Positions 561 to 28,568 of a stretch of DNA of 64,000 nucleotides are shown here, one piece after another. A model generated the notes under the pieces. That model saw only the letters and a list, made by a program, of their open reading frames with translations, was not told where the DNA came from and did not search any database. A program made the translations under genes and the position numbers. Source of the DNA: Siphonodentalium dalli (lineage: Eukaryota; Mollusca; Scaphopoda; Gadilida; Siphonodentaliidae). Position 1 is the first letter of the stretch, and each line of letters starts with the position of its first letter. The stretch spans positions 63,553,127 to 63,617,126 of the forward strand of contig CP136061.1 of assembly GCA_032622095.1 (NCBI GenBank). The letters are read 5' to 3'.

Positions 561-1544
561 TCAGAAAACATTGATTTCCGCTTGCATAATAGCCGCTGGA
601 ACATTTGCAGACATATCTAGAGCTTCACGGTATCCACCTTCACAATACCGACTACGGTATTAATTTCCATACCGCGGTATGACTAAATACCGTCAAGAAT
701 AATGTCCAAACATTTCGCTAGTTAATATCCTTTGGGACATGCAGTACGAAATGCAATATTCACGTGTGAATGCAGTGTCACGCGGACACGCGAAAAGAGG
801 ACAACGCAATGCATGTCGATTGTGATCTTAACAATGTGTGGGGTACTACTGACGTCGCTTATGCAAAAAACAACAAACAAACAAGTATATACATGTACAA
901 TGAGGGGATTGAAGTCCAGATTATACTAAGAATGTCCCCAAGCAATATGTATTTATCCGTGGTGTCTCGATGGTGGACAAACATTAGCACGGAAACAATG
1001 GTAAGAGTATAGTTTACATTTCGTAATTGTATGGATGGCGACCATGGTCAAATTATTGCTTTGTGTACACTAATTTGAGCTGCATGTGAGGCGACAATAA
1101 ACACACATCCATCAGCGTACATGTTGTCGCTGCCTTCGTGATAATTGATTTTCGCACTTTGCTGCAGTTACGCGACTGGTTGGTTATCGTCTCGTCTCGC
1201 TGTTTTTCGTTTCGTCTCGCTGGTTCTCATTTCCTCTCGCTGATTCTCGTTCTCGTTCATTTCTTACAGGCACGCTTTAGTGCCTCAGAGTATGTATTTT
1301 ATTGACATTTGCTATCGTAAAACTAACTAAAAAGAAAATATAGTGTGCAGCGGTATACCGACTATTCAAGAAATCCAATACCGACTACACGGTATTAAAA
1401 ACCGCGGTATGACTAAATACCGAAAAACCGTGAAGCCCTAGACATATCCACTATTTCCAATGATATCTGTACAGTAAGCATTGGTGTCAGCACACTGGCC
1501 AGATATAGAACCATATAAGGGACAGCTGTTATCTAATTGTACAT
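561..1544 (-). pseudogene. Six-cysteine EB/EGF-like exon, interrupted by a hAT-like insertion
   Basis: Minus-strand exon of a cysteine-rich extracellular protein. An acceptor with a long polypyrimidine run ending TTCTTCAG precedes 1544; the donor A|GTATGT follows 561. Without the insertion (618-1440) and one copy of its 8-bp target duplication, the exon is 153 nt (51 codons), open, and phase 1 at both ends. The upstream half (1544-1449) encodes three cysteines, including GQCADTNAYCTD; the downstream half (617-561) encodes three more, including CKCSSGYYASGNQC. The spacing C-x9-C-x6-C-x10-C-x-C-x10-C matches the intact exons at 21425 and 15311. The family resemblance (EB/EGF-like, secreted or ectodomain) comes from the cysteine spacing. 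As it stands the exon cannot be translated through the insert unless the insert is removed or the exon is skipped. Skipping would keep the frame because the exon is symmetric. Confidence 0.75.
618..1440. mobile_element. Non-autonomous hAT-like element, 823 bp, inserted in an exon
   Basis: Terminal inverted repeats TAGAGCTTCACGGT (left) and the complement of ACCGTGAAGCCCTA (right) match at 13 of 14 positions. They are flanked by a perfect 8-bp target duplication GACATATC at 610-617 and 1441-1448. An 8-bp duplication and a TIR beginning TAG are typical of hAT elements. Subterminal copies of CCGCGGTATGACTAAATACC lie near both ends. There is no transposase ORF; the ~65-80-codon ORFs inside (732-1012) resemble nothing known. 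CT-rich motifs (CTCGTCTCGCT and relatives, 1190-1260) form a short internal repeat. Confidence 0.8.
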
Positions 1545-5824: not shown

Positions 5825-6313
5825 TTAAAGGTACTCAATCCGAACAGAGGGTCCCCATCTCAACAGATTCCAACAACAACAATCCGATCAAATGGTCCTA
5901 TATTACTATTTCTTTGGCTTTGGGGGTAAAAAATATTTGATTCAAGTCGAGGAACCCATCAAACAAAGCTCAGAGTTATTAGATATTGATTTTTGAAATT
6001 TGTTATTTACTCGAGATGAGTACTAATAATTGCCTTCAACTGCCGTAATCTGCTCGGGATGTGTACACCAAAATCTATTCAAACCGACAAGGATGGATAA
6101 CTCTAAAATCAAGTGGTAATAATAACGCAATTTTGACTGAGTTCTGGGCCAGAAAGTATTCCCGATAATGAAAAATAATAGATTTCTAAATATAGATATC
6201 TAACAAATCTGAGCTTTGATGGGTGACTTCCTCGACTCGAATCAAATATTTTTTACCCCCGAAGCCATTGAAATAGTAATTGAGAGGAGTTTTATCGGAT
6301 TGAGTACCTTTAA
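5825..6313. mobile_element. MITE with TTAAAGGTACTCAATCCG inverted ends
   Basis: Begins TTAAAGGTACTCAATCCGA and ends with its inverse, TCGGATTGAGTACCTTTAA. The ends are inverted over about 19 bp, giving a 489-bp element. TTAA at both outer edges could be the target duplication. There is no ORF worth keeping. A second family member with the same inner TIR lies at 44124-44509. Its right part is carried again at 8682-9041 because the 2.7-kb tandem duplication begins inside it, and a diverged relative appears around 16650-16800 and 29910-30060. Confidence 0.65.
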
Positions 6314-7193
6314 GGACAAGGGGGTCGATACAATTTTCCTCCATTTACCATCACTCTGAAGTCTGAAGTTAGCAGACGTAATTTCGTTGTGTTTTTGCTG
6401 TTTAACCATTCGGCAAACCTCGTCAGATTCCGTCATCCTTGGCCCGCAGAGGTCACAGGTCGAGGAGTTCAGAATGGCTGTTTAACGTCAAGAAAAATTA
6501 TCAATGGAAGCATCCGGCATCCGATATATGTGCCCGACGTCATCCGGCGTACGGTGGTCTGGCATCCGGAATACGCCATAACAGACACCGCATCCGGCGT
6601 ACGAAAAGGGGGGTCGTCACCCTCATATAACGTGACAGGACGAAAATGGATTGTCCCGTCAGGAGAACATTTTTGTATTTGTCACTGAAAAGTAGTCATT
6701 TCCTTGCACCTGAAATACTCATAAAGCAACCCAAAGCTATGTACATGTATATTACGCAAATTGATCATTTCCATGGGTGCAATAATTCTGTTAATGATAC
6801 CCAGAGCATTGATCATGAAATTACGCACGTGAGATCACCGTCTGATTGAAGACTAAATAAATGAACAAGCTACTAGTTAGTGTGCTTACAAATTTATAAG
6901 ATTCCGACACCGATAGGTATATTTAAACAATAAAAAGCGTATACGCATTGACCAATAATACCAAGCAAGGGGAATTGAATTAAGTATTTCCAAAAACGTC
7001 AACAGGTAGCTTCCGTGAAAATGAAACCAAAAGGATATATTCTGTCAATCGTAAAACTATTTGTGTGCTGTGACATCATATTGCAGAAGATATTTATAGC
7101 GGCATAGTATGAATGGTATTGAAATCGTTCAAACTCGAAACACGTAGATTGTTCAACAGTCTGCCATAGTCCAACAACTATATAAGTTAGGAC

Positions 7194-8514
7194 TAGAGCT
7201 GAAACGGTTAGACGGTTAACCGGTTAGCATCCGGTTAGCGACGTAACCGGTTAGAAAAAAATGAACCGGACGTAACCGCATCCCGTTGTCAGTTGAATGT
7301 GAACGTGAATAATCCTCTAAATATTAGGTTAAATGATGCAAAACTAATACTAAATCCTGTGTCACCGATAGTAGAGTGCAATGCAAGCATTAATTGGTAC
7401 ACGCGGTAGTATCAGATACTTAGTAGCAATTCTCGAACTGTCTGGAAGTGTCGGCGACCTTCAATCAATTCCGACCCTTTGAAGTTTTCTTCCGACAAAA
7501 GCACGTGCGCAGTCACTGTGTATCAAGCCTGAATGCACACAAGGAAGTGACAACGTAAAAGTGGCATTGTGTGGCATACTGCACGAAAGCAACATGGATT
7601 CAAATTGGAACCACACCACGACATACTTATATATATAAAACTGTTTTACAGTGGGGTTTATAAAAACTATGTAAGTCGACAAAGTTTGAAGATTGAGATC
7701 AGCTGCACAATGTCTTCACTCTTCCCGTTCTTCCTCCCTGTTGTGATTTAATATGATCAATTCAATTGAGTGACCAAACAGACATCGTAGTTGAAGCAAC
7801 CCAACACTTCTTCAATAATCTTCCCTTTTATCAAGGAAATTGATGCTCCATGCTACTCTGTAACTGGTTGTGCCTGTGGGACTAATTAACACTCAATTTG
7901 GCAGTAATTGCTATATGTTAAGTGATTGCATACTAAAACCGAAACCGAAACGTAAATTATATAACCTCCCAACACTAGTGTCCGCTATCATGATACCGAC
8001 GAATAGCTCGAATACGGAATAGGACTGCGAGTCTGACCTAACTGCATGACCTTCCTTTTTGTTCTCTAGTTATTACTTTCTTGTCTGTATATATAATGCA
8101 TTGGAGGATATACCAATGATGATAGTGATATATTACAGATCTTTAATATATAGTTGTGTTACTCGTTTTACCAATACCCATACTATTTTACTCGTTTTAC
8201 AAATGCCCAAACATATGCTGATCACGGCAAATAAGCGATCTCTCCTGCCATTCACAAATTTCACTTGCTCATTCCCCATCACGAGAGCCAGCAAAAGAAC
8301 AATGAATGCGTGTTTTTGAATATCGTTAAATGCCGTGAATAAGGTCTTTATTTCAGCTACTACTTCACACCTAGGTTTGTCCCTGGAGCATGGCATAATG
8401 TCGACATAATTAGTGTGAGAGAAGACCGCTAGAAATTTAGCGGTTAACCGGTTGAAATCCGGTTAACCCCGATGGTTAACCGGTTAGAAGAATGGGTCAA
8501 CCGTTTCAGCTCTA
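7194..8514. mobile_element. Non-autonomous hAT-like element, 1321 bp (copy 1)
   Basis: Terminal inverted repeats TAGAGCTGAAACGGTT and AACCGTTTCAGCTCTA are followed inward by clustered AACCGGTTAG motifs. A perfect 8-bp target duplication GTTAGGAC flanks it (7186-7193, 8515-8522). The paralogous loci near 17592 and 30851 hold a single GTTAGGAC and no element, i.e. empty sites. No transposase is encoded; the ORFs inside are short and also appear, altered, in the relative at 54032-55399. Confidence 0.88.
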
Positions 8515-8558
8515 GTTAGGACCACTGCTATGAACTAAGTTTTAGCCCCTGTGTTATG

Positions 8559-8681
8559 AAATATGAAAGTGTCAATGACACTGTAGCTCAACTTTGTAAA
8601 GAAGGTAATTTTTGTGTGATTGGCAATGAATAGAGAGATTAAAAAGGAGTGTAAAAAATGAGCAGTAAAGGATTTAGTCAT
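8559..8681 (+). mobile_element. Truncated 5' head of a Helentron-like element
   Basis: Contains the AAGTGTCAATGACACT hairpin and TAGCTCAACTTTGTAAAG start that open the full elements at 11287 and 17641. It is cut off at 8681 where the second copy of the tandem duplication begins, so it has no core array. Confidence 0.7.
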
Positions 8682-11409
8682 ACCCATCAAACAAAGCTCA
8701 GAGTTATTAGATATTGATTTTTGAAATTTGTTATTTACTCGAGATGAGTACTAATAATTGCCTTCAACTGCCGTAATCTGCTCGGGATGTGTACACCAAA
8801 ATCTATTCAAACCGACAAGGATGGATAACTCTAAAATCAAGTGGTAATAATAACGCAATTTTGACTGAGTTCTGGGCCAGAAAGTATTCCCGATAATGAA
8901 AAATAATAGATTTCTAAATATAGATATCTAACAAATCTGAGCTTTGATGGGTGACTTCCTCGACTCGAATCAAATATTTTTTACCCCCGAAGCCATTGAA
9001 ATAGTAATTGAGAGGAGTTTTATCGGATTGAGTACCTTTAAGGACAAGGGGGTCGATACAATTTTCCTCCATTTACCATCACTCTGAAGTCTGAAGTTAG
9101 CAGACGTAATTTCGTTGTGTTTTTGCTGTTTAACCATTCGGCAAACCTCGTCAGATTCCGTCATCCTTGGCCCGCAGAGGTCACAGGTCGAGGAGTTCAG
9201 AATGGCTGTTTAACGTCAAGAAAAATTATCAATGGAAGCATCCGGCATCCGATATATGTGCCCGACGTCATCCGGCGTACGGTGGTCTGGCATCCGGAAT
9301 ACGCCATAACAGACACCGCATCCGGCGTACGAAAAGGGGGGTCGTCACCCTCATATAACGTGACAGGACGAAAATGGATTGTCCCGTCAGGAGAACATTT
9401 TTGTATTTGTCACTGAAAAGTAGTCATTTCCTTGCACCTGAAATACTCATAAAGCAACCCAAAGCTATGTACATGTATATTACGCAAATTGATCATTTCC
9501 ATGGGTGCAATAATTCTGTTAATGATACCCAGAGCATTGATCATGAAATTACGCACGTGAGATCACCGTCTGATTGAAGACTAAATAAATGAACAAGCTA
9601 CTAGTTAGTGTGCTTACAAATTTATAAGATTCCGACACCGATAGGTATATTTAAACAATAAAAAGCGTATACGCATTGACCAATAATACCAAGCAAGGGG
9701 AATTGAATTAAGTATTTCCAAAAACGTCAACAGGTAGCTTCCGTGAAAATGAAACCAAAAGGATATATTCTGTCAATCGTAAAACTATTTATGTGCTGTG
9801 ACATCATATTGCAGAAGATATTTATAGCGGCATAGTATGAATGGTATTGAAATCGTTCAAACTCGAAACACGTAGATTGTTCAACAGTCTGCCATAGTCC
9901 AACAACTATATAAGTTAGGACTAGAGCTGAAACGGTTAGACGGTTAACCGGTTAGCATCCGGTTAGCGACGTAACCGGTTAGAAAAAAATGAACCGGACG
10001 TAACCGCATCCCGTTGTCAGTTGAATGTGAACGTGAATAATCCTCTAAATATTAGGTTAAATGATGCAAAACTAATACTAAATCCTGTGTCACCGATAGT
10101 AGAGTGCAATGCAAGCATTAATTGGTACACGCGGTAGTATCAGATACTTAGTAGCAATTCTCGAACTGTCTGGAAGTGTCGGCGACCTTCAATCAATTCC
10201 GACCCTTTGAAGTTTTCTTCCGACAAAAGCACGTGCGCAGTCACTGTGTATCAAGCCTGAATGCACACAAGGAAGTGACAACGTAAAAGTGGCATTGTGT
10301 GGCATACTGCACGAAAGCAACATGGATTCAAATTGGAACCACACCACGACATACTTATATATATAAAACTGTTTTACAGTGGGGTTTATAAAAACTATGT
10401 AAGTCGACAAAGTTTGAAGATTGAGATCAGCTGCACAATGTCTTCACTCTTCCCGTTCTTCCTCCCTGTTGTGATTTAATATGATCAATTCAATTGAGTG
10501 ACCAAACAGACATCGTAGTTGAAGCAACCCAACACTTCTTCAATAATCTTCCCTTTTATCAAGGAAATTGATGCTCCATGCTACTCTGTAACTGGTTGTG
10601 CCTGTGGGACTAATTAACACTCAATTTGGCAGTAATTGCTATATGTTAAGTGATTGCATACTAAAACCGAAACCGAAACGTAAATTATATAACCTCCCAA
10701 CACTAGTGTCCGCTATCATGATACCGACGAATAGCTCGAATACGGAATAGGACTGCGAGTCTGACCTAACTGCATGACCTTCCTTTTTGTTCTCTAGTTA
10801 TTACTTTCTTGTCTGTATATATAATGCATTGGAGGATATACCAATGATGATAGTGATATATTACAGATCTTTAATATATAGTTGTGTTACTCGTTTTACC
10901 AATACCCATACTATTTTACTCGTTTTACAAATGCCCAAACATATGCTGATCACGGCAAATAAGCGATCTCTCCTGCCATTCACAAATTTCACTTGCTCAT
11001 TCCCCATCACGAGAGCCAGCAAAAGAACAATGAATGCGTGTTTTTGAATATCGTTAAATGCCGTGAATAAGGTCTTTATTTCAGCTACTACTTCACACCT
11101 AGGTTTGTCCCTGGAGCATGGCATAATGTCGACATAATTAGTGTGAGAGAAGACCGCTAGAAATTTAGCGGTTAACCGGTTGAAATCCGGTTAACCCCGA
11201 TGGTTAACCGGTTAGAAGAATGGGTCAACCGTTTCAGCTCTAGTTAGGACCACTGCTATGAACTAAGTTTTAGCCCCTGTGTTATGAAATATGAAAGTGT
11301 CAATGACACTGTAGCTCAACTTTGTAAAGAAGGTAATTTTTGTGTGATTGGCAATGAATAGAGAGATTAAAAAGGAGTGTAAAAAATGAGCAGTAAAGGA
11401 TTTAGTCAT
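8682..11409. repeat. Tandem duplication, copy 2 (2728 bp)
   Basis: Almost base-identical to 5954-8681. The junction at 8681/8682 joins ...TTTAGTCATAC to CCATCAAAC. Such near-identity means either a very recent duplication or an assembly duplication. Confidence 0.9.
9922..11242. mobile_element. Non-autonomous hAT-like element, 1321 bp (copy 2, duplicated passively)
   Basis: Identical in structure to 7194-8514, with GTTAGGAC on both sides. It lies at exactly +2728, so it was copied with the tandem duplication and not by transposition. Confidence 0.88.
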
Positions 11410-12839
11410 ACACAGAGTAAAATCCAAGATGGCAGCTGGCGTTTTTTTTTTGTCTGAATGACCCCAAAATGACTCTTTCCCAACTACATTCCAATTTCAA
11501 TAGCCATGAAAATTTTTCCCATCTACATGTCAATATTAACATCCCTGACAAATTTTATGATGATCACACTAAAGGTACGACCTGTAGCCCGTGCTAAAGA
11601 ATTTAGTCATACAAAGAGTAAATCCAAGATGGCTGCCATGTTTTTTGGCCGAATGACCCCAAATGACTCGTTCCCATCTACATACTGTTAACATTCATTT
11701 TATGATGATCAGACTAAAAGTACGACCTGTAGGCTGTGCTAAGTGATTTAGTCATACAAACAGTAAAATCCAAGATGGCTGCTGGCAGCCATGTTTTTTG
11801 GCCAAATGACCTCAAAATGACTCGTTCCCATCTACATGTCATTGTTAACATCCATGACAAATTTTATGATGATCAGACTGAAGGTACGACCTGTAACCCG
11901 TGCTAAAGGATTTAGTCATACAAAGAGTAAAACACAAGATGGCTGCTGCGGCCATGTTTTTTGGTCGAATGACCCCAAAATTAATCGTTCCCATCTACAT
12001 GTCAATATTAACATCCAAGACAAATTTCATGATGATCAGACAAACAGTACGACCTGTAGCCCGTGCTAATGGATTGAATTTTGAAATCAAAGATGGCCAC
12101 TGGCGGCCATGTTTTTTGGCCGAATAACCCCAAAATGACTCATTCCCATCTACATGCCATTGTTAACATCCATGACAAATTGTATGATGATCAAATATTT
12201 TTTTGGCTGAATGACCCCAAAATGACTCGTTCCATCTACATGTCATTATTAACATTAATTATAAATTTTATGATGATCAGACTAAAGGTACGACCTGTAG
12301 CCCGTGCTAAAGGATTTAGTCATACAAAGAGTAAAATTCAAGATGGCTGCTGGCGGCCATGTTTTTCGGCCGAATGACCCCAAAATAACTCGTTCCCATC
12401 TACATGTCAATATTAACATCCATGTCAAATTTCATGATGATCAGACAAATTTCATGATGATCAGACTAAAGGTACGACCTGTAGCCCGTGCTAAAGGATT
12501 TAGTCATACAAAGAGTAACATCCAAGATGGCTGCTGGTGGCCATGTTTTTTGCCCGAATGACCCAAAAATGACTCGTTCCCATCTACATGTCATTGTTAA
12601 CATCCATGACTAATTTTATGATGATCCGACCAAAGGTACGATCTGTAGCCCTTGTCAAAGGATTTAGTCATGCAAAGAGTAAAATCTAAGATGGCTGCCG
12701 GCGGCCATGTTTTTTGGCCGAATGACCCCAAAATTACTCGTTCCCATCTACATGTCAATATTAACATCCATGACAAATTTCATGACAATAAGACGAACAG
12801 TACGGCCTGTAGCCCGTGCTAATGGATTGAATTTTGAAA
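11287..12839 (+). mobile_element. Helentron-like (HINE/'pearl'-type) element with 164-bp core array, 3' end lost
   Basis: The 5' end carries the AGTGTCAATGACACT hairpin and TAGCTCAACTTTG. The body is about nine units of a ~164-bp repeat, each with TTTAGTCATACAAAGAG, AAGATGGCTGCTGGCGGCC, GACTCGTTCCCATCTACATG and GGTACGACCTGTAGCCCG. It breaks off at about 12839 into unrelated sequence without the hairpin 3' end. The ORFs reading KMAAGGHVFWPNDPKMTRS are translations of the repeat. Confidence 0.75.
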
Positions 12840-13093
12840 TGGTGCACCCAGATGAATTTGTAATGACAATTCACACATCGCTCTAAAAGAAATACGCATC
12901 AACACTATATTATAATTCTATGTTTTGATACTCTATCTCAGTATCTTGTTTGTTTCTACTTGAGCAGGCCTTTACCTGATTAACTGATGGTTATATAAAG
13001 CAGTGTCATGGAATCTTCATTGTTGAAACAGAATCATCTAGTCAGAAATATAAAGATCAGAGTAGGTCTTGCAACAGTGTCAATCAATGTTTG

Positions 13094-13473
13094 AACTAGA
13101 GATGGGACTAAGGTATACCCCCCATATTCAACATGTTATTCCAATAAAGTAACCATTACCATAAATTGAAATTGGTCAATAGTTTCACTGTAAACATACT
13201 AGTTACCTGCAGCTACTCACATGTGAAAGCTTATATTCAAAGTAAAATAAAGTTACATAACTTGGCCAATATGAGTCTGACTGAACTCCAAATCGCAGGT
13301 GCAAAGGTTCACATGACGATTGACCCCTGTAGCAAATTTGATTCAAATTGAACAAGAAAGTTCTGAGAAAACATCCGGACAAAAAAAACTTCAAATCTGG
13401 AGAATTATTCCTAAGTCGAAAAATTATCATAACCCAGTCAAAATTTTTTGGACCGAACTCCAATTGCCACATT
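13094..13473 (+). mobile_element. Left part of a 'GCTCGGACAAAATTATGC' repeat element, split by a Helentron-like insertion
   Basis: Begins AACTAGAGATGGGACTAAGG, the same start as the element at 62628. It continues with CATAATCGCAGGTGC-type repeat units (degenerate here) until 13473, where a Helentron-like element starts. The right part resumes at 14938. Confidence 0.6.
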
Positions 13474-14937
13474 AAATGAAAGTGTCAATGACACTGTAGC
13501 TCAACTTCGAAAGGGAATAATTTTATGTGTCACAGTCAATGGAGTGATTAGGAATGTGGAAAGTTGAAAGGCCTAGTTTTGCAAAGAGTAAAATCCAAGA
13601 TGGCCACTGGCAGCCATGTTTTTTTGCCGAATGACCCCAAAAAGACTTGTTCCCATTTACATGTCATTGTTAACATCCAAGATAAATTTCATGATGATCC
13701 GACAAAAGATACGACCTGTACCCTATGTGAAAGGATTTAGTCATGTAAAGAGTAAAATACTGCTGCCGGCCATGTTTTTTGGGCGAATGACCTCAAAACG
13801 ACCCGTTTCCCATCAACATGTCATCGTTAACATCCATGACAAATATCATTATGATCGGACCAAAGATACGACTTGTAGCCCTTGATAAATGATTTAGTCA
13901 TGCAAATAGTAAAATCCTAGATGGCTGCTGGTGGCCATGTTTTTTGGCCGAATGACCAAAATTACTCGTTCCCATCTACATGTCAATATTAACATCCACG
14001 ACAAATATCATGATGATCAGACGAACAGTACGACCTGTAGCCCATGCTAATAGATTGAATTTTGAAATCCAAGATGGCCGCTAGTGGCCATGTTTTTTTG
14101 CTGAATGACACCAAAATGCCTCGATCCCACCTACATGTCAATGTCAATAGCCATTACAAATTTCATTATGATCCGAAAAAAGGTAGGACCTGTAGCCCGT
14201 GCCAAAGGATTTAGTCAAACAAAGAGTAAAATCCAAGATGGCTGCTGGCGGCCATGTTTTTTAGCCGAACGACCCCAAAATGACTCATTCCCATCTACAT
14301 GTCAATATTAACAACCATGACAAAATTAATGATGATCTGATAGAAGATACAACCTGTAGCCCGTGCTAATGGATTGAATTTTGAAATCCAAGATGGACGC
14401 TGGTGGCCATGTTTTTTGGCCGAATGACCCCAAAAGGACTCGTTCCCATCTACATGTCATTATTAACATCCATGACAAATTTAATGAGATCTGACCAAAG
14501 CTACGACCTGTAGCCCGCGCCAAAGGATTTAGTCATGCAAAGAGTAAAATCCAAGATGGCTGCTGGCGGGCATGTTTTTTGGCCAAATGACCCCAAAATT
14601 ACTTGTTCCCATCTACATGTCAATATTAACATCCATGACAAATTTCATCATGATCAGACGAACAGTACGACCTGTAGACCGTGCCAATGGATTTAATTTT
14701 GAAATCCAAGATGGCCGCCAGTGGCCATGTTTTTTGGCTGAATGACCCCAAAATGAATCGTTCCCATCTACATGTCAATGTCAACATTCATGACGAATTT
14801 CATAAAGATCAGACCAAAGGTACAACCTGTAGTCCACGCCAAAGGAAATTGTTGACGGACACACGCACATACGCACACACAGACAACGGACGCCAACCCA
14901 TGGCAATAGCTTAAACTTACAAAGTAAGTTGAGCTAA
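13474..14937 (+). mobile_element. Helentron-like element with 164-bp core array, both ends present
   Basis: 5' end AAATGAAAGTGTCAATGACACTGTAGCTCAAC; about nine degenerate 164-bp units; then a tail (TTGACGGACACACGCACATA, 14849 onward). The 3' end carries a short hairpin (AAACTTAC ... GTAAGTT) followed by GAGCTAA. The 3' hairpin plus CTRR-like end and a 5' TAGCTCAACTT that mirrors it are Helentron/HINE hallmarks. No Rep/helicase is encoded. It sits inside another repeat element (13094-15206). Confidence 0.72.
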
Positions 14938-15206
14938 AAAAATGGACAGAAAAATTTAGGAATAAAAGCTTGGACAAAATTATGCATCTTGACAAAATTT
15001 TCTAAATAAAAAAAGGAGGACAATTCCACACAAAAATGTCGGACGGACCTCATAATCGCAGGTGCCCAGGTTCCTATGGTACTAAATGTGCCAAGTTTTT
15101 TAAAGATTGACTGAAAATGTACGAATAAAAGCTCGGACAATATTGTCTCCACGAACGGACGAATGGCTAGACGGACGAACAAGCTGATTCCAGTATACCC
15201 CGCAAT
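14938..15206 (+). mobile_element. Right part of the split repeat element
   Basis: Resumes with AATAAAAGCTTGGACAAAAT units and ends in the GACGGACGAACAAGCTGAT tail and CCAGTATACCCC, like the tail at 63060-63137. Minus-strand ORFs here (duplicated at 28192-28440) are shadows of the repeat. Confidence 0.6.
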
Positions 15207-15310
15207 GAGTTGTGGGGGTATAATTATATAATGTTATCTCTAATTGATACAGCAATTTGATTTTACTAGGGTTAAGTGTGAAGAGTACCTGAGAATATTA
15301 TTAGCCTTAC

Positions 15311-15445
15311 TTGGTTTGCACACTGCACCATCAGCATAGTAATTGTCACCACACACACATCTACTATTGCTATTCTGATACAGACAACTAGAGTGAGGAA
15401 CACATGTATCTGTATTGAAGACACATATTGACCCTGGATAAATCC
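15311..15445 (-). CDS. EB/EGF-like six-cysteine module exon (copy 1a)
   Basis: A 135-nt exon (45 codons), phase 1-1. The acceptor AATTATTTCAG precedes 15445 and the donor A|GTAAGG follows 15311. It encodes six cysteines spaced C-x6-C-x5-C-x8-C-x-C-x10-C, with SSCLYQNSNSRCVCGDNYYA in the middle. The pattern fits a disulphide-rich extracellular module of the EB/EGF-like type and is very close to the exons at 21425 and 561. Neighbouring exons of the same gene lie ~6 kb upstream (21425) and ~14 kb downstream (561, broken) on the minus strand. Signal peptide and other parts of the gene were not found in this window. The long ORF that overlaps it (15272-15520) is in a different frame and is a shadow. 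Confidence 0.78.
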
Positions 15446-17640
15446 CTGAAATAATTTAACATAATTTATATTGATGTTCAATGAAGAATTTTTTATGGTA
15501 TGGGGAGAGTTAGGTAGCAAGTCGTGATTTAACAGGAAATGATGTATGATTTGAGATAATCTGAATTAAGCATGCAAAAGTAGTAATGTATAAATTGGTG
15601 CAGTGAAGTCATATCACAATAATCATGCACCCTCTATATTCACACAATTAGCATTCCGTAAGAATCAGAATCAATCACCATAAGGTTTGAACGAACGTTT
15701 CAAAGGTTTGAACGCAATAACTGAAGTAACATTTCATAAAAAGCAATGAACCATGGATGTCCCTTCAAGCCAAACACGCGCTCAGCATGTGTTGTTAAAT
15801 TGGTCGCACTTTCCATCTTCAGTTGTCGGGCTTTCCAATCAGCTGTTTTGACATGGGTAAAAAAATATACAGGAAGTATATATTGGAAAACGAGGCCACT
15901 GAAATCCTAATTTTATTTTGGGCTCATTTGTATTGCGATATGAATTAACTATATTAATACATGTACTCGCAAAAATCATAGATATTTCAGGAAATGTCCA
16001 TTTTTTTGCAGTGATGCCAGCGAATATACTGGTATATGATTATAAGGAATGACTGTCATCAGTTTTGACTGGCAGATTGATTAAACGAAGTTCATGAATC
16101 CATTCTTTGGTCAAAGGGCTGTAATTCCTTCGGGATTTACATACCAAATAACACAAATGGACCTTCCAGTCATTCCTTAATTGATACTAAAGACTTCACT
16201 GTCTAAATTTGAAAAGATAATGACAGTCACCCACACTCCACCCACCATTTGAAAAGGCAAAATGTTTATTGTGCATATACGCTGGCAGATATTACTTAAG
16301 GATTACTACCAGACAATGGAATGTAAAATTGTTTGTACTGCCAATCCTATGAAGTAATGTCAACTTATTTTATATGCATGAATTAACACTGTACATATGT
16401 ATATATAGGTGTATTCAAATTAAGACTCAAGGTCTATATAACCATAAACGTATATGTTATAGGTATATTCGCAGAGACTTACTCAAAATACACTTGGGGA
16501 TAATCGCTCATGATCGCCGACTGGTTCACCGGAAGTTGACTTCTCTCAGGTGCACTCAATCGTGGTTCTGCCCGGTCTACTCCATATGATCCATAGTTTG
16601 ACAGTATAGCAACTTTTATTCAATGGATCTAACTGGACCACTAATATTTCTCGATGGTAAAAAATAATAGATATAAAAAATTGATATCTAATAACTGTGA
16701 GCTTTGATAGGTGGGTTCCTCGACTTGAATCAAATATTTTTTACCCTGAAGCCAAATAAATAGTAATTGAGGGTGCTTAATCGGATTATGAATCTTTAAG
16801 CCGCCAAAGTCAGATAATGTAACTTGTAACTCATGGAAGACTTTTGATCTCGCGCAAGATTTCTAATACACGTAATTTCGACTGTATACCCCTCTAAGTG
16901 ATCAAGTTTTTAGCAAGCTACTGTTATCAGTCTCATGCTGACTAAAGACCTGAATACATTAGTTTTTGTCATTGGCATCGCGCGTGCGTATTACCAGGGT
17001 TTCCGCCTGGGGAAAATAAATGAGGCCTATTGTGCAAATATATAACGTGACAGGACGAAAATGGATTGTCCCGTCGGGAGAACATTTTTGTATTTGTCAC
17101 TGAAAAGTAGTCATTTCCTTGCACCTGAAATACTCATAAAGCAACCCAAAGCTATGTACATGTATATTACGCAAATTGATCATTTCCATGGGTGCAATAA
17201 TTCTGTTGATGATACCCAGAGCATTGATCATGAAATTACGCACGTGAGATCACCGTCTGATTAAAGACTAAATAAATGAACAAGCTACTAGTTAGTGTGC
17301 TTACAAATTATAAGATTCCAACACCGATAGGTATATTTAAACAATAAAAAGCGTATACGCATTGACCAATAATACCAAGCAAGGGGAATTGAATTAAGTA
17401 TTTCCAAAAACGTCAACAGGTAGCTTCCGTGAAAATGAAACCAAAAGGATATATTCTGTCAATCGTAAAACTATTTGTGTGCTGTGACATCATATTGCAG
17501 AAGATATTTATAGCGGCATAGTATGAATGGTATTGAAATCGTTCAAACTCGAAACACGTAGATTGTTCAACAGTCTGCCATAGTCCAACAACTATAGTTA
17601 GGACCACTGCTATGAACTAAGTTTTAGCCCCTGTGTTATG
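15446..17640. other. Intron between EB/EGF-like exons; no gene seen
   Basis: Contains diverged relatives of the 5.8-kb MITE (about 16650-16800) and of the 6.6-7.2-kb flank (17041-17640). The 17592-17599 GTTAGGAC is the empty site of the 7194 hAT-like element. The 71- and 67-codon ORFs here repeat exactly in the second duplicate and show no family features. Confidence 0.5.
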
Positions 17641-20543
17641 AAATATGAAAGTGTCGATGACACTGTAGCTCAACTTTGTAAAGAAGGTAATTTTTGTTTG
17701 ATTGGCAATGAATAGAGAGATTAACAAGAGCTACGCTGGGCGTGCAATATACGCCCTCTCTTGGGTCGGTGGAAACTGGTAAAAAAGGGGCATAACTCTG
17801 GTAAAAATTGGCGGACGGAACTCAAATTTGAACTTGACCTGGGTTTTGGTGGGAGAAAGTAATATACCAAATTATCATTGAATCCGATAAGCTCTAGTAA
17901 AGTTATCATCCGGACAACAAATTTCAGGGATTTTCTAAGTCAAATTACGTCAAATAAGGGGCATAACTCCGGTGAAAGTTGGCGGACGGAACCCAAATTC
18001 GAACTTTAGCTGTCTTTTCTCCTAATAAACCCACATACCAAATTTGATTGAAATCGGTTCACTCTAACTAAAGTTATCAAATTTCAGGGATTTTCTAAGT
18101 CAAATTACGTAAAAAAAGGGGCCATAACTCTCGCAAAAATTATCGGATTAAAACGAAATTCGGACTTGAGCTGTATTTTGATATATGTAATCCACAAAAA
18201 AACAGGTTTTGCGTATAAACATTCCAAAATCGAGTTATCATCCGGAAACAAAAAAACATAAGAAAAACTGAATTTTCTGAGTCGAAAAAGGGGCATAACT
18301 CTGCCAAAAATGGTCGGACAGAACCCAAGTTCGAACTTCACCTGTGTTTTGGTGGGAGAAAGTAATATACCAAATTTGGATTCATTCCGATAAACTATAC
18401 TAAAGTTATCATCCGGACAACAAATTTCAAGGATTTTCTAAGTAAAAAAACGTTAAATAAGGGGCATAACTCTGGTGAAAATTCGAACTTGAACTTACTT
18501 TTCGGCTAATAAACCAACATACCAAATTTTACTAATTTTGGTTCACCTAACTAAAGTTATCATCCGGACAACAGGTTAACGGACGGACGCCCGCCCGCCC
18601 GGACGGACAGACCAATACTATAATACGGCCTTTTTTTCAAAAGGGCGTATAAAAAGGAGTGCAAAACATGAGCAGTAAAGGATTTAGTCATACACAGAGT
18701 AAAATCCAAGATGGCAGCTGGCGGCCATGTTTATTGTCTGAATAACCCCAAAATGACTCTTTCCCATCTACATTCCAATTTCAATAGCCATGAAAAATTT
18801 CATGATGATCAGACTAAAGGTACGACCTGTAGCCCGTGCTAAAGGATTTAGTCATACAAAGAGTAAAATCCAAGATGGCTGCTGGTGGCCATATTTTATG
18901 GCCGAATGACCCCAAAATGACTCGTTCCCATCTACATGTCAATATTAACATCCCTGACAAATTTTATGATGATCACACTAAAGGTACGACCTGTAGCCCG
19001 TGCTAAAGAATTTAGTCATACAAAGAGTAAAACCAAGATGGCTGCAATGTTTTTTGGACGAATGACCCCAAAATGACTCGTTCCCATCTACATACTGTTA
19101 ACATTCATTTTATGATGATCAGACTAAAAGTACGACCTGTAGCCTGTGCTAAGTTATTTAGTCATACAAACAGTAAAATCCAAGATGGCTGCCAGCGGCC
19201 ATGTTTTTTGGCTGAATGACCCCACAATGATTCGTTCCCATCTACATGTCAATGTCAACATTCATGACAAATTTCATAAAGATTAGACCAAAGGTACAAC
19301 CTGTAGCCCGCGCCAAAGGATTTAGTCATGCAAATAGTAAAATCCAAGATAGCTGCTGGCGGCCATGTTTTTTGGCCGAACGACACCAAAATCACTCGTT
19401 CCCATCTACATGTCATTATTAACATCAATGACAAATTTCATGATGATCAGGCGAACAGTACAATCTGTAGCCCGCGCCAATGGATTGAATCTTGAAATCC
19501 AAGATGGCTGCCAGCGGCCATGTTTTTTGGCCGAATGACCCCAAAATGACTCGTTCCCATCTACATGTCAATGTCAACATTCATGACAAATTTCATAAAG
19601 ATCAGACCAAAGGTACGACCTGTAGCCCGGGCCAAAGGATTTAGTCATGCAAAGAGTAAAATCTAAGATGGCTGCTGGCGGCCATGTTTTTCGGCCGAAC
19701 GACCCCAAAATGACTCGTTCCCATCTACATGTCATTGTTAACATCCATGACAAATTTCATGATGTTCCGATCGAAGCTACGACCTGTAGCCCGCGCCAAA
19801 GGATTTAGTCATGCAAAGAGTAAAATCCAAGATGGCTGCTGGTGGCCAGGTTTATTGGCCGAACAACCCCAAAATGACTCGTTCCCATCTACATGTCAAT
19901 ATTAACATCCATGACAAATTTCATGATGATTAGACCAAAGGTACAACCTGTAGCCCGCGCCAAAGGATTTAGTCATGCAAAGAGTAAAATCCAAGATGGC
20001 TGCTGGCGGCCATGTTTTTTGGCTGAACAACTCCAAAATCACTTGTTCCCATCTACATGACAGTGTTAACATCCATGACAAATTTCATAAACTTCCGACC
20101 AAAACAACGACCTGTAGCCCGCGCCAAAGGATTTAGTCATGCAAAGAGTAAAATCCAAGATGGCTGCTGGCAGCCATGTTTTTTGGCCGAACGACCCCAA
20201 AATCACTCGTTCCCATCTACATGTCATTATTAACATCAATGGCAAATTTCATGATGATCAGATCAACAGTACGACCTGTAGGCCGCGCCAATGGATTGAA
20301 TCTTGAAATCCAAGATGGCTGCCAGTGGCCATGTTTTTTGGCCGAATGACCCCAAAATGACTCGTTCCCATCTACATGTCAATGTCAACATTCATGACAA
20401 ATTTCATGAAGATCAGATCAAAGGTACAACCTGTAGCCCGCGCCAAAGGAAATTGTTGACGGACACACGCGCACATGGACACACGGACGACGGACGCCAA
20501 ACCATGGCAATAGCTCAAACTTACAAAAGTAAGTTGAGCTAAT
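17641..20543 (+). mobile_element. Helentron-like element with 164-bp core array, full ends, split by an insert
   Basis: 5' hairpin AAGTGTCGATGACACT and TAGCTCAACTTTG at the left; 3' TTACAAAAGTAAGTTGAG hairpin plus CTAAT at 20539-20543. About eleven 164-bp units lie between 18676 and 20450; successive GGATTTAGTC starts at 19637, 19801, 19965 and 20129 give an exact 164-bp period. A ~0.92-kb foreign repeat (17725-18647) interrupts the 5' head. No protein is encoded, so it is non-autonomous. Confidence 0.8.
17725..18647. mobile_element. Insert with ~170-bp GGGGCATAACTC tandem units and short TIRs
   Basis: Inserted into the head of the Helentron-like element: the uninterrupted sequence GAGAGATTAAAAAGGAG exists at 8634-8650. 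The insert leaves TAA on both sides. ATACGCCC near the left and GGGCGTAT at the right are inverse ends. Inside are about five units of 160-174 bp starting GGGGCATAACTC (17787, 17957, 18116, 18290, 18461) and containing AAAGTTATCATCCGGACAA, then a CGGACGGACGCCCGCCCG tail. ORFs on its minus strand are shadows. Confidence 0.72.
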
Positions 20544-21424
20544 AAATGCCATGGTGCATACTATCATGACAATGACAGCAATGACGACATGTGTAAGGTT
20601 CTGTCAAGGCCAGAAATTCCTATGGAATTAAACATATTTGCCGGTGATTAAACTGAAAATGCGGTAGAAAATACAAGTAAATAGGTGACTGAGGTAAAAG
20701 TACGAGTTGAAAGGTGAAGACCGAAGTGTTAGATACAATATGTGATGACTTATCTGTTCAGAGCGTTACTGAACTATTCGGGAGAAATTTGGAACTTTTA
20801 TATACTGGTTAGTTTCTTTTTTGCATGTTTTGATACAATAATAGATAATTCACTTTATAAAAGTTTTATTTCATGTTACTCTCATGGTGATGACCGAGGG
20901 TTTGCCTATATATATATCAAATTAGTCATAACCATGGAAGATGTACATGGGGAGAAGCCGCAGAACAATGTATGTAATAGCCTTGGTGGGACAATGGTAG
21001 CACATATAAATGAAAAGCCTACCTGCCTCCTCGATAAAATTGTCACCATTAATAAATTAAAAATAAAAACCTGCCTCCCTCATAGTTAAAATCTGCCTCC
21101 CTCATAGTTAAAATTGGCCATAAATTATAAAAATAAATATCTGCCTCCCTCATCCCTTTGGAAAAAAGTGTCTGAGAAACAAACAACTTTTTTATTTGGC
21201 CTAAATGGATTCAGTCATAACGGTATACATTGGAATGGTCTATTATTCATTTGGAAGGGTCTTCAGGTAAATTAGTAGACAATAGTTTACAATTAAGTGC
21301 AGAAGACTTGATATTCATTGGTAAGAAATGTTCAGACAAATGATCGTTTGTTGAACTTATTATCTGGACATTTCCTTAGGAACTACCCATCAATGAGTAT
21401 TTATTAAAGAAAGGGTTAACCTAC
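20544..21424. other. Intron; CTGCCTCCCTCAT short repeats
   Basis: No supported gene. CTGCCTCCCTCATAGTTAAAA recurs three to four times at 21070-21155. The 115-codon ORF at 20742-21089 has no recognisable domain and runs against the gene on the other strand, so it is left uncalled. Confidence 0.4.
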
Positions 21425-21571
21425 TCTGGGTACAGCGTGAAGATTTCCAGTATAATCCATCATTACACTGACATCTGTTTGTGTTCTGGTCATCTGCTGT
21501 ACACTGTGTGTTGCTGTCAGCACACTGCTCTGAAGGTCCACCATCAGTGCAGATACCTTTAATGGCTATCT
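21425..21571 (-). CDS. EB/EGF-like six-cysteine module exon (copy 1b)
   Basis: A 147-nt exon (49 codons), phase 1-1. The acceptor TTCTCTTTCAG precedes 21571 and the donor A|GTAGGTT follows 21425. It encodes GICTDGGPSEQCADSNTQCT, then a CQC pair, and ends at a cysteine near the donor: C-x8-C-x6-C-x9-C-x-C-x10-C. Cysteine spacing and the shared Q-C-A-D-[ST]-N motif tie it to the exon at 561-1544. It is probably one repeat of a multi-module secreted or membrane-anchored protein. Its function cannot be assigned from this fragment. Confidence 0.82.
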
Positions 21572-21625
21572 CTGAAAGAGAAGTAGAGAATATCATCAAT
21601 TAGTATCATCAGTGATGCGGACCAG

Positions 21626-22300
21626 ACCGCAAACAAGAGCATTGCTAGGGCTTGGCAAAATACGACCTTTAGCCATTTTGAATTGAACTACCACAAAATA
21701 AATTAAAAATTTGAGGTTAAGTAGAATATCTGATATACCCCTAATTTCAATGCCAAAATGCTTTCACATTCTAAGTCGAAAAATGGCCGTGACTCATGTG
21801 AAAATAATTGGACAGAACCCATGTTTGAACTCTGCCTGTAGTTTAATCTGGGACCCACACATACCAGCTTTGGTCCAAATCAAATAATCCAAACAAGAGT
21901 TATCGGTCGGAAACCGAAATGTTATGAAATCGGTCAAATTCTGTAGAAAAAGTGCAGTAACCAATGTAAAAATAATTGGTTGGAATCCATATATGAACTT
22001 GGCCTGTATCTTTAGCTGGGAAATACAAATACCAACTTTTGTTCAGATCAAATAATCCAAACTGGAGTTATCGGTTGGAAACCATAAATGTTAACAGACA
22101 GTCAAATACTAAGTCGAAAAAGGGCCGTAACTCATGTAAAAATAATTGGATGGAACCCATATTTGAATATGGCCTGTATTTTTAGCTGCGATAATACACG
22201 TACCAACTTTGGTTCAGATCAAATAATCCAAACTAGAGTTATCGATCGGAAACCAAAAATGTTAACAGACGGCACTACCAACATTTGAGGTTAATGAGGC
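21626..22300 (+). repeat. Three-unit ~170-bp tandem array (GTAAAAATAATTGG units)
   Basis: GTRAAAATAATTGG recurs at 21797, 21966 and 22136, giving a ~170-bp period. Each unit contains CAAATAATCCAAACNAGAGT and TATCGGTCGGAAACC. The start ACAAGAGCATTGCTAGGGC resembles the start of the insert at 17725, suggesting a related element class. Confidence 0.7.
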
Positions 22301-22406
22301 AAAATTTTTATGAGCTAGTTAATTTATTGAGTCAGTTCAATTTTATGAGTTTTTTTAAACAAGTGCTAACATTTAGGGTTTATGAGCTCAACAAGTCCAG
22401 ATACTT

Positions 22407-22689
22407 GAGAGGTTAGTCTAAAAATAGAAAAGACCATCGAATGTGTAAAAATTTTAATACACTATTTCTAGCTTCCAAAAATAATCAACCACTCAACCAG
22501 TTAACTGGTTAGCATGTAAACCACGGGAAGGTAGTGTTGAATACAAATCTATCGAACTATTGTAACCTTGTAATACTCTAGAGCTATTCACTACCCTATA
22601 ATCCATGCTTGTATTGGAATCTCATTAAACTCATGGACAAGTTGATAACCCACAATCGATGGACTTTGCTATTTTTAGACTAACCTCTC
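22407..22689. mobile_element. MITE with ~30-bp inverted ends
   Basis: Left end GAGAGGTTAGTCTAAAAATAG and right end CTATTTTTAGACTAACCTCTC are perfect inverses. The match continues inward with a few mismatches to CCATCGA on the left and TCGATGG on the right. It is about 283 bp with no coding capacity and no clear target duplication. AACCGG-rich DNA around it (22497, 22723-22758) may be remains of another hAT-like element. Confidence 0.65.
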
Positions 22690-23469
22690 TAGTGCTGAAC
22701 GGCTGACCTATTTTTGTAGCTGGTTAACCGCGACGTGTAACCGGATCATAACCGGTTATCTGCTATTTTCAACCTATGACTTTATACTGATTATTTATAC
22801 TATAATTTGTACCAATATATCAGCATAATTTGATGTATTAACTGTATGGCAAACTCGCGTAATGTTTACAAAGACAGAGCTTGTATTAAACTAATGTAAA
22901 TCACCAAACACGAACGTCACAAAGCCACGTGTTGACAACTTGGCAGATGACACAGTGAACTAAAACTCGCAGTGTTTATAAATAGACGTGTCATGCTTGA
23001 CATATTTGTACTGCAGTTGCGACTGCTACCTGACTTGTTATCATTCTCATTTTGGGAAGAATATTGTGTGACCTATATACATGTTCATACATCGACAGTT
23101 TTGTATTGCCATTATAGCGATTGCGGGACTGGCCGATTATTAAGTCATGTGACTCAGGTATTCTAACCGCTGGGTGTTCTTTGGCGATTTGAGATAGATA
23201 GGATGACCAATAAACACAATTATGAAGTTTGTGAACTTTATGTAGTTAACAAATGAAAATTTAAAAAAACAGCTGAAAACCTGCTAAAAACACTGTTTTC
23301 TGTTAGAAGACAATCAAATGCTGAGAATTAGTCATTAGGATGCAAATAAGTCTGACTGCAGGGTAACACCATTTTTATTCGAGTTCATTTGAACTTCATC
23401 GACTGAGATTACTCAACGACTCGACCCGTCCAAAACACTCAGTGGACAAAAGTAACCCCACGTATCAAA

Positions 23470-23830
23470 TTTCGTCAAAATCCCATCAAAATTGGCGATA
23501 TGACCTTGAATTGACCCGATTTTAAGGTCAAGGTCACGTCGCACGGGCAAACGAATATGCTTATGAGACTCCCCATATGAAAGTACCCCCAGATACCAAG
23601 TTTCATCAAAATCCCGTAATATTCGGGCGTTTGACCTTGAAATTACCCAATTTCAAGGTCAAGGTCACGTCGCACGGGCAAATTAATAGGCCTATGCCCG
23701 TTCCCGGCCGAAAATACCCCCACATACAAAGTTTCATCGAAATCGGGTCTGCCGTTTTCGAGTTCATCGCGAACACACAGACACACAGATCTTCCAAAAT
23801 ATATAATAGATATATATATATACTAGGTGA
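23470..23830. repeat. GGTCA-rich repeat units (TGACCTTGA ... TCAAGGTCA)
   Basis: Units of about 130 bp contain TGACCTTGAATTGACCCGAT, then TTCAAGGTCAAGGTCACGTC, then ATACCCCCAGATACCAAGTT, TCATCAAAATC. The array ends with an ACACAGACACACAGATCTTCC stretch and TATATAATAGATATATATAT. Copy 2 (36730-37227) has one more unit. ORFs in both directions are shadows of the repeat. Confidence 0.7.
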
Positions 23831-26760
23831 CCCGACTTCGTCCGGGCTTTGACCTTGAATTGACCATTTTGAAGGTCAAGGTCAGGTGGGGTCAAACACC
23901 AACACCCCAAAAATGGTGGAAATCGGCCCAGCAGATACCGGGAAATCGGCCCAGCGGATACCGAGATACCCTATGCATCAAATTTCGTCCGTAAAAATCC
24001 GCCAGTTTAACCCGATTTGATTTCCACTCAAGTAAAAAACGCGCCTCATATACACACGCTCATTAATTATCAAGTTTCAATGTAAAGATAAATTACCATC
24101 GGTGCCCGAGATATCGCCAAGACGTCTGAAACAGTCAAATGCATCGGCCGGTTAAGCGTTATTGTAATACGACCCTGCCTAACTATGCTTAAAAGCCATG
24201 TCCTGATTGGCCAGTGGCCCGAGTTACCATGGCTATCTCGTTCCAGTTTTGTGGTACAATTCTACTTTTCCAATTGTACCACGAAAAAAATCGGTTTATT
24301 CAGATCGCCGCACGCGACTTTTCCCGTCTTTTCTAACTCCGCGCAAACGGGGCATCAACGGAGTACACCCGCACCCGTAATCCTTTGAAATTTGCTACAT
24401 CTTGACAATCTTGCGAATTTTCTAGCGATTTGTCGCTTGAAACCAGTTTGGTTGCCAATGAATATGGTCCAAATGATGTTATGGTATATTGATATATGTT
24501 ACGACCAAAGAAAGTTACTTAATAAGTATATTAAATGACAAAATAAATCCATGTGGCCGGGCTGTGCATTCGTCGATTCGAATCTCGATCATATTCGATA
24601 TTTCGGAATCAAGTTGAAAATGAAAGCGTTTGTTCACCAGTACAGATGGGGAATAAGATTAGTTTAGTAAACTAGATCATTTAGATCGCTTTGTGTAAGG
24701 AAATTGGTCCATAGTCGATGATATATTCATGTTGTCCCAACAACGTTTAAAACAGAAATGACCGCAATTGTATTTCCTGTACAATTTAAATGAAACACAC
24801 GGGCGCCGCTGAAAACACATCGTTTTTTAGCCAATCACAACGATTATTTCTAGAAGAGGTGCCTCGAAAAGTCAACGGGGGAATTTCATAACAAGACAAG
24901 ACATTACCAGAGTACTCCATGCAAAGAAATCGAGTACGCCCAATACGAATTACACCACGAAATGTTTTCTCACCTGAGACCGAAAAAGCGCAGTATTTCG
25001 TTGACTATTCAGTCGAATTGTGACCATAAACTTTCAGTCGTATTACAAAAGAAATAAATACACGGTGTATCGGTGTGTATGGTCAAGTTGTACCACAAAA
25101 AACTGATTGTAGGACTCCGCTACGCGTCGTCCTACAATCAGTTTTTTGTGGTACAACTTGACCATACACACCTCTACACCGTGTATTTATTTCTTAAACG
25201 TAATCTAATGTTATGACCTCTAACGACGTCATAGAAGTTACGCATTGTTTTTATCCTGATGGAAGATAGTACCAGATAACTAAAACGGATACATACGCAT
25301 TATATATCGTTGAAAAGAGGAAACACGAAAGATTCTCACAGTGTCATTATTATGACTGGCATTTTATTATTCGCGCTGTTTCGAATCGATTTGTAAGCAC
25401 CGAACTCAAATGAAAGTCCCGTAACACAGCGTAAAAACAGATTTGACCTCGGCACGTGAAAAGTTGACCTCGGATCTGAAAATCAATAGGCCTATGTCAC
25501 CCCCCGGCCGAAAATACCCCCACATACCAAGTTTCATCGAAATCGGGTCGGCCGTTTTCGAGTTCATCGATTACACACAAACAAACAAACAAACAAACAG
25601 ATCTTCCAAGATATATAATAGACTAGAAGGTGACCCGACTTCGTCCGGGCTATTCAAAAACCAAATTTCAAGTCGATTGCTCCACCCGTTTCCGAGATCT
25701 GGTCTGCGCATGCGTGAAGCTGGCGTCGCACGGGCTCGGCGACCCGATAAAATTCGTATCCGGGGCAAGATACATTCACATACCAAATTTCAAGTCGATA
25801 GCTCCACCCGTTTCCGAGATATATAGCCCAATGTCATTTGCGGATACCTCGGCCGGTGATGAGTTAACGCGACATCGGCCGGTTAAGAGTTAACGCGATC
25901 ACGTCACGATATGTTGATGGCGTAATATATTTACGCAATGATTTTCGATGAGCGAAGCATGGTCATGCGTTCTTCCCGATAATTAAGGTAGAAACTTTAA
26001 ACGTACACAGGCGTGTGATACATCATTGGAAAGATGAATTGCCACAGATTCTAACCGTGCAAATTATATAACTGGCAATTTATTATTCGCGCTATATCGA
26101 ATCAATTTGTGAGCACCGAATTGAAATATATTAGCGCAAAACGGCGTAAAAACAGATTTGACCTCGGCACGTGAAAAGTTGACCTCGGATCTGAAAATCA
26201 ATAGGCCTATGTTACTCCTGACCCGAAAATACCCCCACATACCAAGTTTCATCGAAATCGGCTGGGCCATTTTCGAGTCCATCGATTACACACAGACAGA
26301 TACACACACACACACACAGATCTTTCAAAATATATAATAGACTAGCCGATGAGCCCGACGTTGTCTGGGCTATTCAAAAACAAAATTCGTATCCGGGGCA
26401 AGATACATTCACATAGCAAATTTCAAGTCGATAGCTCCACTCGTTTCCGAGATCTCGTCTGCGCATGCGCGAAGCTGGTGTCGCACGGGCTCGGCGACCC
26501 GATAAAATTCGTATCCGGGGCAAGATACATTCACATAGCAAATTTCAAGTCGATAGCTCCACCCGTTTCCGAGATCTCGTCTGCGCATGCGCGAAGCGGG
26601 CGCCGCACGGGCTCGCCAATACGACAACGTTCACCGCCTGGTCAAACTACACACACGTACCAAGTTTCGTCCCGATCGGTCGAGAATCGTAGATTTGTAT
26701 AAATGACAGACAGACAGACAAACAAACAAACATACATACAGACAGAGGTCTTCAAAATAT
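23822..26760. repeat. Cluster of related repeats with ACCCGACTTCGTCCGGGCT heads and CA-rich/ATATATAATAGA tails
   Basis: Three heads (about 23826, 25630 and 26350) each follow an (ACAC/ACAA)n tract and AGATCTTYCAARATATATAATAGA, as if elements with simple-sequence tails had inserted next to one another. The last block holds ~122-bp units with TTTCAAGTCGATAGCTCCAC, CTGCGCATGCGCGAAGC and GCACGGGCTCGGCGACCCGA. The overlapping 70-127-codon ORFs on both strands are translations of these units. The quiet middle (23990-25040) shows no gene. Confidence 0.6.
25049..25195. repeat. Large near-perfect hairpin, two 67-bp arms
   Basis: Left arm 25049-25115 and right arm 25129-25195 are inverse with about two mismatches. 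They are separated by 13 bp (TCCGCTACGCGTC). Arms contain GTTGTACCACAAAAAACTGA. A smaller related hairpin (GTGGTACAAT ... ATTGTACCAC) lies at about 24251-24282. No target duplication found. It could be a foldback transposon, a cruciform-forming site or a small-RNA precursor; sequence alone cannot decide. Confidence 0.8.
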
Positions 26761-27374
26761 ATATGAGATAACTTTAGAATATAGTAGTTAATGTATCATG
26801 CAGGACAATGGTCGCAATGGTGATGTTACCAAGAAATCACTTGGTGTGCCCAACATATGTTGAACTGAATGCTAGAGCTCATCAATGTAACATTCCTCTG
26901 GATGTTCTTCGCGTTGAACATTTTACCCTTGTGTTGATGGCATTTGTACTTTCTTGAAACATACCGACCACCACCCAGCGTGAGTATGACATATCAGCCA
27001 ACTATCAAAGGCATTGCCTTTAAGACTACACCCCAGTCTGGGTGGGGCTTATACAGTAGTAGCCAATGGTACACGCCTGGTCCAGTTGATTAAGAACGGC
27101 TTCCAAACGGATGGGAACATACAATCTTAGCATACAAGGAAAGCAAAGCCATAAGATCCTGTCTGAATCTAAAACATACCAAAATAAGGGACGGTGCAGT
27201 CATGGTCCAATTTCATTTCCACTATCATGACACATTCCCACAAACTAGCACTGTGTGTATTGTTATCACCTGCTTGGATCTGTTCAGTGAGACGATTCCT
27301 GGACGCCAACAAGATTGTTCTTATGAAGTGTGGGCATATTATGTATTATGGTCTCCTGCGCCTTAGCAGAAAGG
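26761..27374. other. Unique sequence at the right end of duplication copy 1
   Basis: No gene supported. Contains the palindromic AAAGGCATTGCCTTT at about 27006-27020. The 93-codon ORF at 27194-27475 crosses the duplication junction and runs into the 164-bp array, so it is a junction artefact. Confidence 0.45.
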
Positions 27375-27379
27375 CATCC

Positions 27380-28195: not shown

Positions 28196-28465
28196 AAAAA
28201 TGGACAGAAAAATTTAGGAATAAAAGCTTGGACAAAATTATGCATCTTGACAAAATTTTCTAAATAAAAAAAGGAGGACAATTCCACACAAAAATGTCGG
28301 ACGGACCTCATAATCGCAGGTGCCCAGGTTCCTATGGTACTAAATGTGCCAAGTTTTTTAAAGATTGACTGAAAATGTACGAATAAAAGCTCGGACAATA
28401 TTGTCTCCACGAACGGACGAATGGCTAGACGGACGAACAAGCTGATTCCAGTATACCCCGCAATG
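28196..28465 (+). mobile_element. Repeat-element tail (duplicate of 14938-15206)
   Basis: Base-for-base the same as the right part of the split element, at an offset of 13258. Minus-strand ORF 28192-28440 is a shadow. Confidence 0.6.
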
Positions 28466-28568
28466 AGTTGTGGGGGTATAATTATATAATGTTATCTCTA
28501 ATTGATACAGCAATTTGATTTTACTAGGGTTAAGTGTGAAGAGTACCTGAGAATATTATTAGCCTTAC

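Follow-up and report, generated by a model that had tools for sequence, protein, structure and literature searches.

A coding exon with three cysteines on one side of a long insert and three on the other raises the questions of what the insert is, whether the exon that it split can still be read and what would become of a message transcribed across it. The exon lies near the left end of the window, by which the whole stretch of DNA analysed is meant (64 kb, 38.9% G+C). The explanation that accounts best for the locus, at a probability of about 0.85, is the insertion of a non-autonomous hAT-like transposon into an EB/EGF-like coding exon. A hAT-like DNA transposon of 823 bp would have entered, by a cut-and-paste mechanism, an exon of 153 nt (phase 1-1, minus strand) and duplicated 8 bp of it; this exon would encode one six-cysteine module of a multi-module protein. 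The structural part of this explanation, namely the element, the duplication and the empty exon, is highly probable taken by itself.

The interrupted exon and its empty state

The disrupted exon, referred to as exon A, is read on the minus strand from 1544 to 561 and measures 984 nt with the insert. Without the insert and one duplicate it is reduced to 153 nt in one open frame, preceded by the acceptor TTTTTTTTTCTTCAG and followed by the donor GTATGT, both borders splitting a codon after its first base (phase 1-1). In gene sense, the first part (1441-1544, minus strand) contains three of the six cysteines and ends with one copy of the octamer GACATATC; it is delimited by its open frame, the acceptor and tblastn and profile matches. 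The second part (561-617, minus strand) starts with the other duplicate, contains cysteines 4-6 and runs to the donor. The insert, which in gene sense comes immediately ahead of cysteine 4, separates it from cysteine 3, and the exon carries no other damage. The first-pass annotation had proposed an empty exon that is open and shares its phases with two other exons, which is borne out by the single 153-nt frame and by phase 1-1 in all three. Since 15143 of 200000 random 50-codon stretches of the window are also open (7.6%), openness alone says little and the homology of the module matters more.

Borders and internal structure of the insert

The insert occupies positions 618-1440 and its two 8-bp flanks (610-617 and 1441-1448) are identical copies of GACATATC, a perfect duplication. 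It is terminated by 14-bp inverted repeats matching at 13 of 14 positions, TAGAGCTTCACGGT on the left (618-631, plus strand) and TAGGGCTTCACGGT on the right (1427-1440, minus strand). The earlier description of an 823-bp element between perfect duplications and between the third and fourth cysteines was thus verified in its coordinates and duplicates, with ends that agree at 13/14. Inside these ends lie direct subterminal repeats, at 643-692 and 1376-1422 (both plus strand), which are 84.6% identical over 52 columns and have in common an exact 22-mer (671-692 and 1401-1422).

Such an arrangement is rare in the window. Among 24694 pairs of identical 8-mers spaced 100-3000 bases apart in the 64 kb, five have inner ends matching at 13/14 or better: the insert, three pairs belonging to a second hAT-like family, and one pair at 5939-6243. 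In 10 control windows generated by a first-order Markov model, 25 pairs reached at least 10/14, four at least 11/14 and none at least 12/14. The pair at 5939-6243 consists of two AAATATTT 8-mers 305 bp apart, with inner ends matching at 13/14 (GATTCAAGTCGAGG); it may represent a further small element on the border of a 2.7-kb duplication. Apart from the insert's own ends, the window holds two near-matches to them, each with two mismatches, where 1.12 would be expected by chance for the whole pattern. The near-match TAGAGCTTATCGG is found on the minus strand at 17884-17896 and 31143-31155, once per copy of a 13.2-kb duplication.

Probable assignment to the hAT superfamily

hAT ends are of the type YARNG, with which the ends of the insert, TAGAG and TAGGG, agree. 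The hAT features listed in an excerpt of PMC3942097 are 8-bp target-site duplications and inverted repeats of 10-25 bp, and the insert has an 8-bp duplication and 14-bp repeats. The insert is accordingly labelled hAT-like and would be non-autonomous, a classification founded on its ends and on the length of its duplication.

It is improbable that this label is wrong, whether because the insert belongs to another superfamily of cut-and-paste elements or because its features came together by chance. Both possibilities draw on the lack of a transposase: Pfam returned no hAT match for six of the nine open stretches of at least 40 aa within the insert, and the sub-threshold matches obtained were to COX2_TM (E 1.7e-4), Transposase_1 (0.066), IgD2_Trs65 (0.19) and Lsm_C (0.29). 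Transposase_1, the sole transposase-type match, is mariner-type rather than hAT-type and scores 13.5 bits against a cut-off of 24; mariner elements duplicate TA, not 8 bp. No second copy of 618-1440 was found elsewhere in the 64-kb window. As for the target, the recognized consensus is nTnnnnAn in the Ac group and nnnTAnnn in the Buster group. GACATATC fits neither of these forms, which is little evidence from one site and concerns a consensus that separates groups within hAT, not the superfamily. The hAT label is favored by the 8-bp duplication combined with short inverted repeats, and by the second family of the window, whose copies, with ends TAGAGCTGAAACGG, also lie between 8-bp duplications. 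The claim of the first-pass annotation that the element is hAT-like therefore stands as regards its ends and duplication, while membership in the superfamily is unproven for want of a transposase, of a second copy in the window and of a fitting Ac or Buster target.

The COX2_TM match, in a hydrophobic open stretch of the insert (862-1047, minus strand), reaches 22.2 bits against a cut-off of 22.8. Speaking for it, none of four shuffles matched any family at E<=1; reversal of the sequence gave a match to another family at 0.08. On the other side, among solved chains one that is not COX2 came first (E 0.046) and those of COX2 followed only at 0.71 and 0.84; an equal score, 22.4 bits, was moreover reached on this stretch by an unrelated NCBIfam model. 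Under the invertebrate mitochondrial code the frame extends further upstream, its downstream stop being unchanged. The match is probably fortuitous; that the stretch is a captured mitochondrial fragment is less likely.

Searches in other collections were uninformative. The 22-nt subterminal repeat had no match in viral contigs or in prokaryote genome contigs, which are the wrong place for such an element. Occurrences of the insert-end pattern in 36 viral stretches were dismissed as chance: the paired end was present in 0/36, and BLAST with the element gave a 17-base match in 4/36 and nothing longer. The peptide of a related exon (exon C, below), the second-family end and a tandem-repeat unit each gave no match in viral contigs, where absence says little.

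Among known systems, the insert resembles non-autonomous hAT elements and hAT MITEs, such as Ds of maize and the Mar and BuT2-related MITEs of Drosophila, in its 8-bp duplication, short inverted repeats, subterminal repeats and lack of a transposase. It differs from them in being present as one copy in the window and in a duplication that departs from the Ac/Buster consensus. At 823 bp, it also lies just above the MITE size limit of 800 bp given in an excerpt of PMC9033116.

A second hAT-like family with a parallel insertion

The second hAT-like family has perfect 14-bp ends, matching at 14/14. One copy (54032-55399) is flanked by the duplication GTGGTAGC. Two further copies (7194-8514 and 9922-11242) have the duplication GTTAGGAC and the flank in common and are one insertion copied by the ~2.7-kb tandem duplication that carries it (5954-8686 and 8682-11414, 99.93% identity). 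Copies of the family are 88.3% identical. The copy at 54032-55399 interrupts a reading frame of a Copia-type retrotransposon (51560-55671), and when the flanking sequence is joined, 120 bases in all, this frame contains no stop. Pfam families for the integrase core (E 4.7e-12) and for RVT_2, the Copia-type reverse transcriptase (E 1.3e-11), were matched further upstream in the retrotransposon; no family was matched at E<=0.01 by 49191-49829 or 55333-55671. The event in exon A is the less singular because the 64 kb hold two coding frames entered by a hAT-like element, each with an empty state that can be reconstructed.

Homology of the six-cysteine module

Two sister exons of exon A were identified, exon B (15311-15445, 135 nt) and exon C (21425-21571, 147 nt, the closest relative of exon A in the window), both on the minus strand, phase 1-1 and with six cysteines. 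Each has an exact tandem copy, B' at 28569-28703 and C' at 34685-34831, so that the order on the minus strand is C', B', C, B, A. Neither these copies nor the minus-strand orientation of the gene was mentioned in the first-pass annotation. A pattern scan of all frames of the window returned no intact six-cysteine module besides B, C, B' and C'. The successive intervals between cysteines are 9-6-10-1-10 in exon A, 6-5-8-1-10 in exon B and 8-6-9-1-10 in exon C. The cysteine spacing, described earlier as the same in the three exons, is consequently similar only: the last two intervals agree and the first three differ.

Rejoining the two halves of exon A improves its recognition. E-values with exon C as a single query were 5.4e-5 for the rejoined exon and, for the halves, 0.05 and 1.7; with a profile of B and C, the values were 0.0017 for the rejoined exon and 0.058 and 0.59 for the halves. 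In both searches the sequence used for the rejoined exon stopped at its borders while the halves kept flanking residues, which may slightly favor the rejoined form; a profile including exon A itself is circular and was not counted as evidence. When the residues other than cysteine were shuffled, the A-C alignment score exceeded all 2000 shuffles, while the A-B score was reached by 52/2000 and the B-C score by 21/2000. The exon C query does not find exon B (E 0.81). On these shuffle scores and this search, exon A is firmly tied to exon C, and the link of exon B to the family is weak.

The modules themselves are best compared with EB (PF01683) and EGF_3 (PF12947), which they resemble in having six cysteines with a C-x-C and from which they differ in that each module alone remains below the Pfam cut-offs for both. 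Rejoined exon A matched EGF_3 at E 1.7e-4 and EB at 0.0044, whereas none of five cysteine-fixed shuffles of it matched any family at E<=1. Against the EB cut-off of 24.3 bits, the three modules score 17.5, 19.9 and 15.6 bits singly and pass when joined, with 33.7 bits. Exon A is therefore predicted to encode a six-cysteine EB/EGF-like module. EB/EGF-like exons separated by introns also suggest that the DNA comes from an animal. Among the matches listed, no title was on point for an EB module in a mollusc or prion-like context, and no paper was on point for hAT together with cysteine-rich proteins in oyster.

Tandem duplications and the state of the gene

Exons B and C are present twice in a near-identical tandem duplication of ~13.2 kb (14156-27382 and 27383-40874). 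Its copies differ at 116 of 13217 aligned columns, 89 of which fall within the first 834, a tandem array; outside these, 27 of 12383 columns differ (~0.2%), in addition to 13 runs of gaps, the longest reaching 130 columns. Such similar copies may reflect a duplication of recent date or one produced by the assembly. Large tandem arrays whose period is near 164 bp extend over 11516-14846, 18677-20450, 27375-28076 and 31937-33710, and a telomere-like unit of CCCTAA type is repeated about three times at 62723-62762.

The same region bears on whether the gene is alive. It is unlikely, though a reading with some weight, that the gene or its module array was already dead or unused and that the element merely entered a pseudogene, with no effect on a protein. 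The start, the end and the remaining exons of the gene lie outside the window, and transposons and tandem arrays abound in the region. The identity of B with B' and of C with C' was rejected as a sign of selection: at ~0.2% divergence, ~0.6 differences would be expected over the 282 nt and none was seen, the copies being too alike to be informative. A dead gene is nevertheless at odds with the open frames, splice dinucleotides and intact cysteines of all five exon copies, and with an exon A in which the insert is the only damage.

Predicted consequences for the message

The insert and the duplicate together amount to 831 nt, i.e. 277 codons, a multiple of three, and length alone therefore keeps the frame. 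The first in-frame codon of the insert in gene sense is nevertheless TAG. The unspliced exon, whose frame contains 15 stops in total, ends after 34 residues of exon A, between cysteines 3 and 4, which sharpens the earlier suggestion of a possible truncation. An internal exon of great length tends to be skipped, and a message with a premature stop undergoes decay. A transcript keeping the 984-nt exon would end 34 residues into the module and would likely be degraded, because a long distance separates its stop from the next junction downstream. Among productive transcripts, the commonest would be one in which exon A, now very long for an internal exon, is skipped, with the frame kept and one module lost. 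That skipping is in frame follows from the phase 1 of both exon ends and from the 153-nt length; the earlier claim to this effect holds by arithmetic, the next downstream exon being located outside the window. For a live gene, the odds of the skipping part are about even, and the likely outcome, taken more broadly, would be either exon skipping or a truncated message subject to decay.

Splicing of the insert itself, as a new intron leaving a changed but working protein, is very improbable. It would have precedents: an excerpt of PMC9860276 describes introners, including families that add or remove codons, and titles cited in PMC3260210 concern Ds1 acting as an intron and spliced from exons. 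The last base of the element and the first base of the duplication also form an AG in the right place. Splice pairs were enumerated for GT-AG introns only, each combining a GT of the first exon part with an AG beyond the element, and were scored with splice-site matrices. On these matrices the GT at 1495 scores -1.3, on a par with the native donor GTATGT, which itself scores only -1.5. Yet 0/24 pairs restore the 153-nt exon; three of the 24 keep the frame open, all from the GT at 1495, and the modules that they yield retain four, two and two cysteines out of six. Any donor within the insert lies behind the in-frame TAG. According to the excerpt of PMC9860276, introners are moreover known from only two groups among animals and land plants. 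One particular form of this splicing, more improbable again, would make the insertion a nascent intron or a splicing switch: paired with an AG that lies either at the element end or within the second exon part, the GT at 1495 would remove the insert in frame, and the module would lose two or four cysteines. If this is true, the transposon would make a new protein form rather than a null allele.

Exon A resembles the maize exons with Ds1, known here from cited titles, in that a hAT-like element sits in a coding exon, and differs from them in the lack of a GT-AG pair restoring it. With introners it has in common the inverted repeats, the target duplication and the position of the element inside a coding exon, in contrast with the absence of a GT-AG pair leaving the protein unchanged and of an intron-copy family in the window. 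Introners, which show that a DNA transposon can turn into an intron, are reported in PMC9860276 to be more frequent in aquatic species, and an excerpt of PMC6593561 links splicing changes to MITEs in mulberry. No literature joining introners, hAT, intron gain and target-site duplication was found.

Significance of the locus

Non-autonomous hAT elements in exons are classical, and the insertion in exon A fits the known picture as an ordinary event. As the trace of a well-known process, it would be of use in marking hAT-like activity. Its interest lies in a gene disruption that can be read in a modular gene of symmetric 1-1 exons, beside a tandem duplication carrying two such exons, so that one locus may show both the gain and the loss of exons without penalty to the frame.
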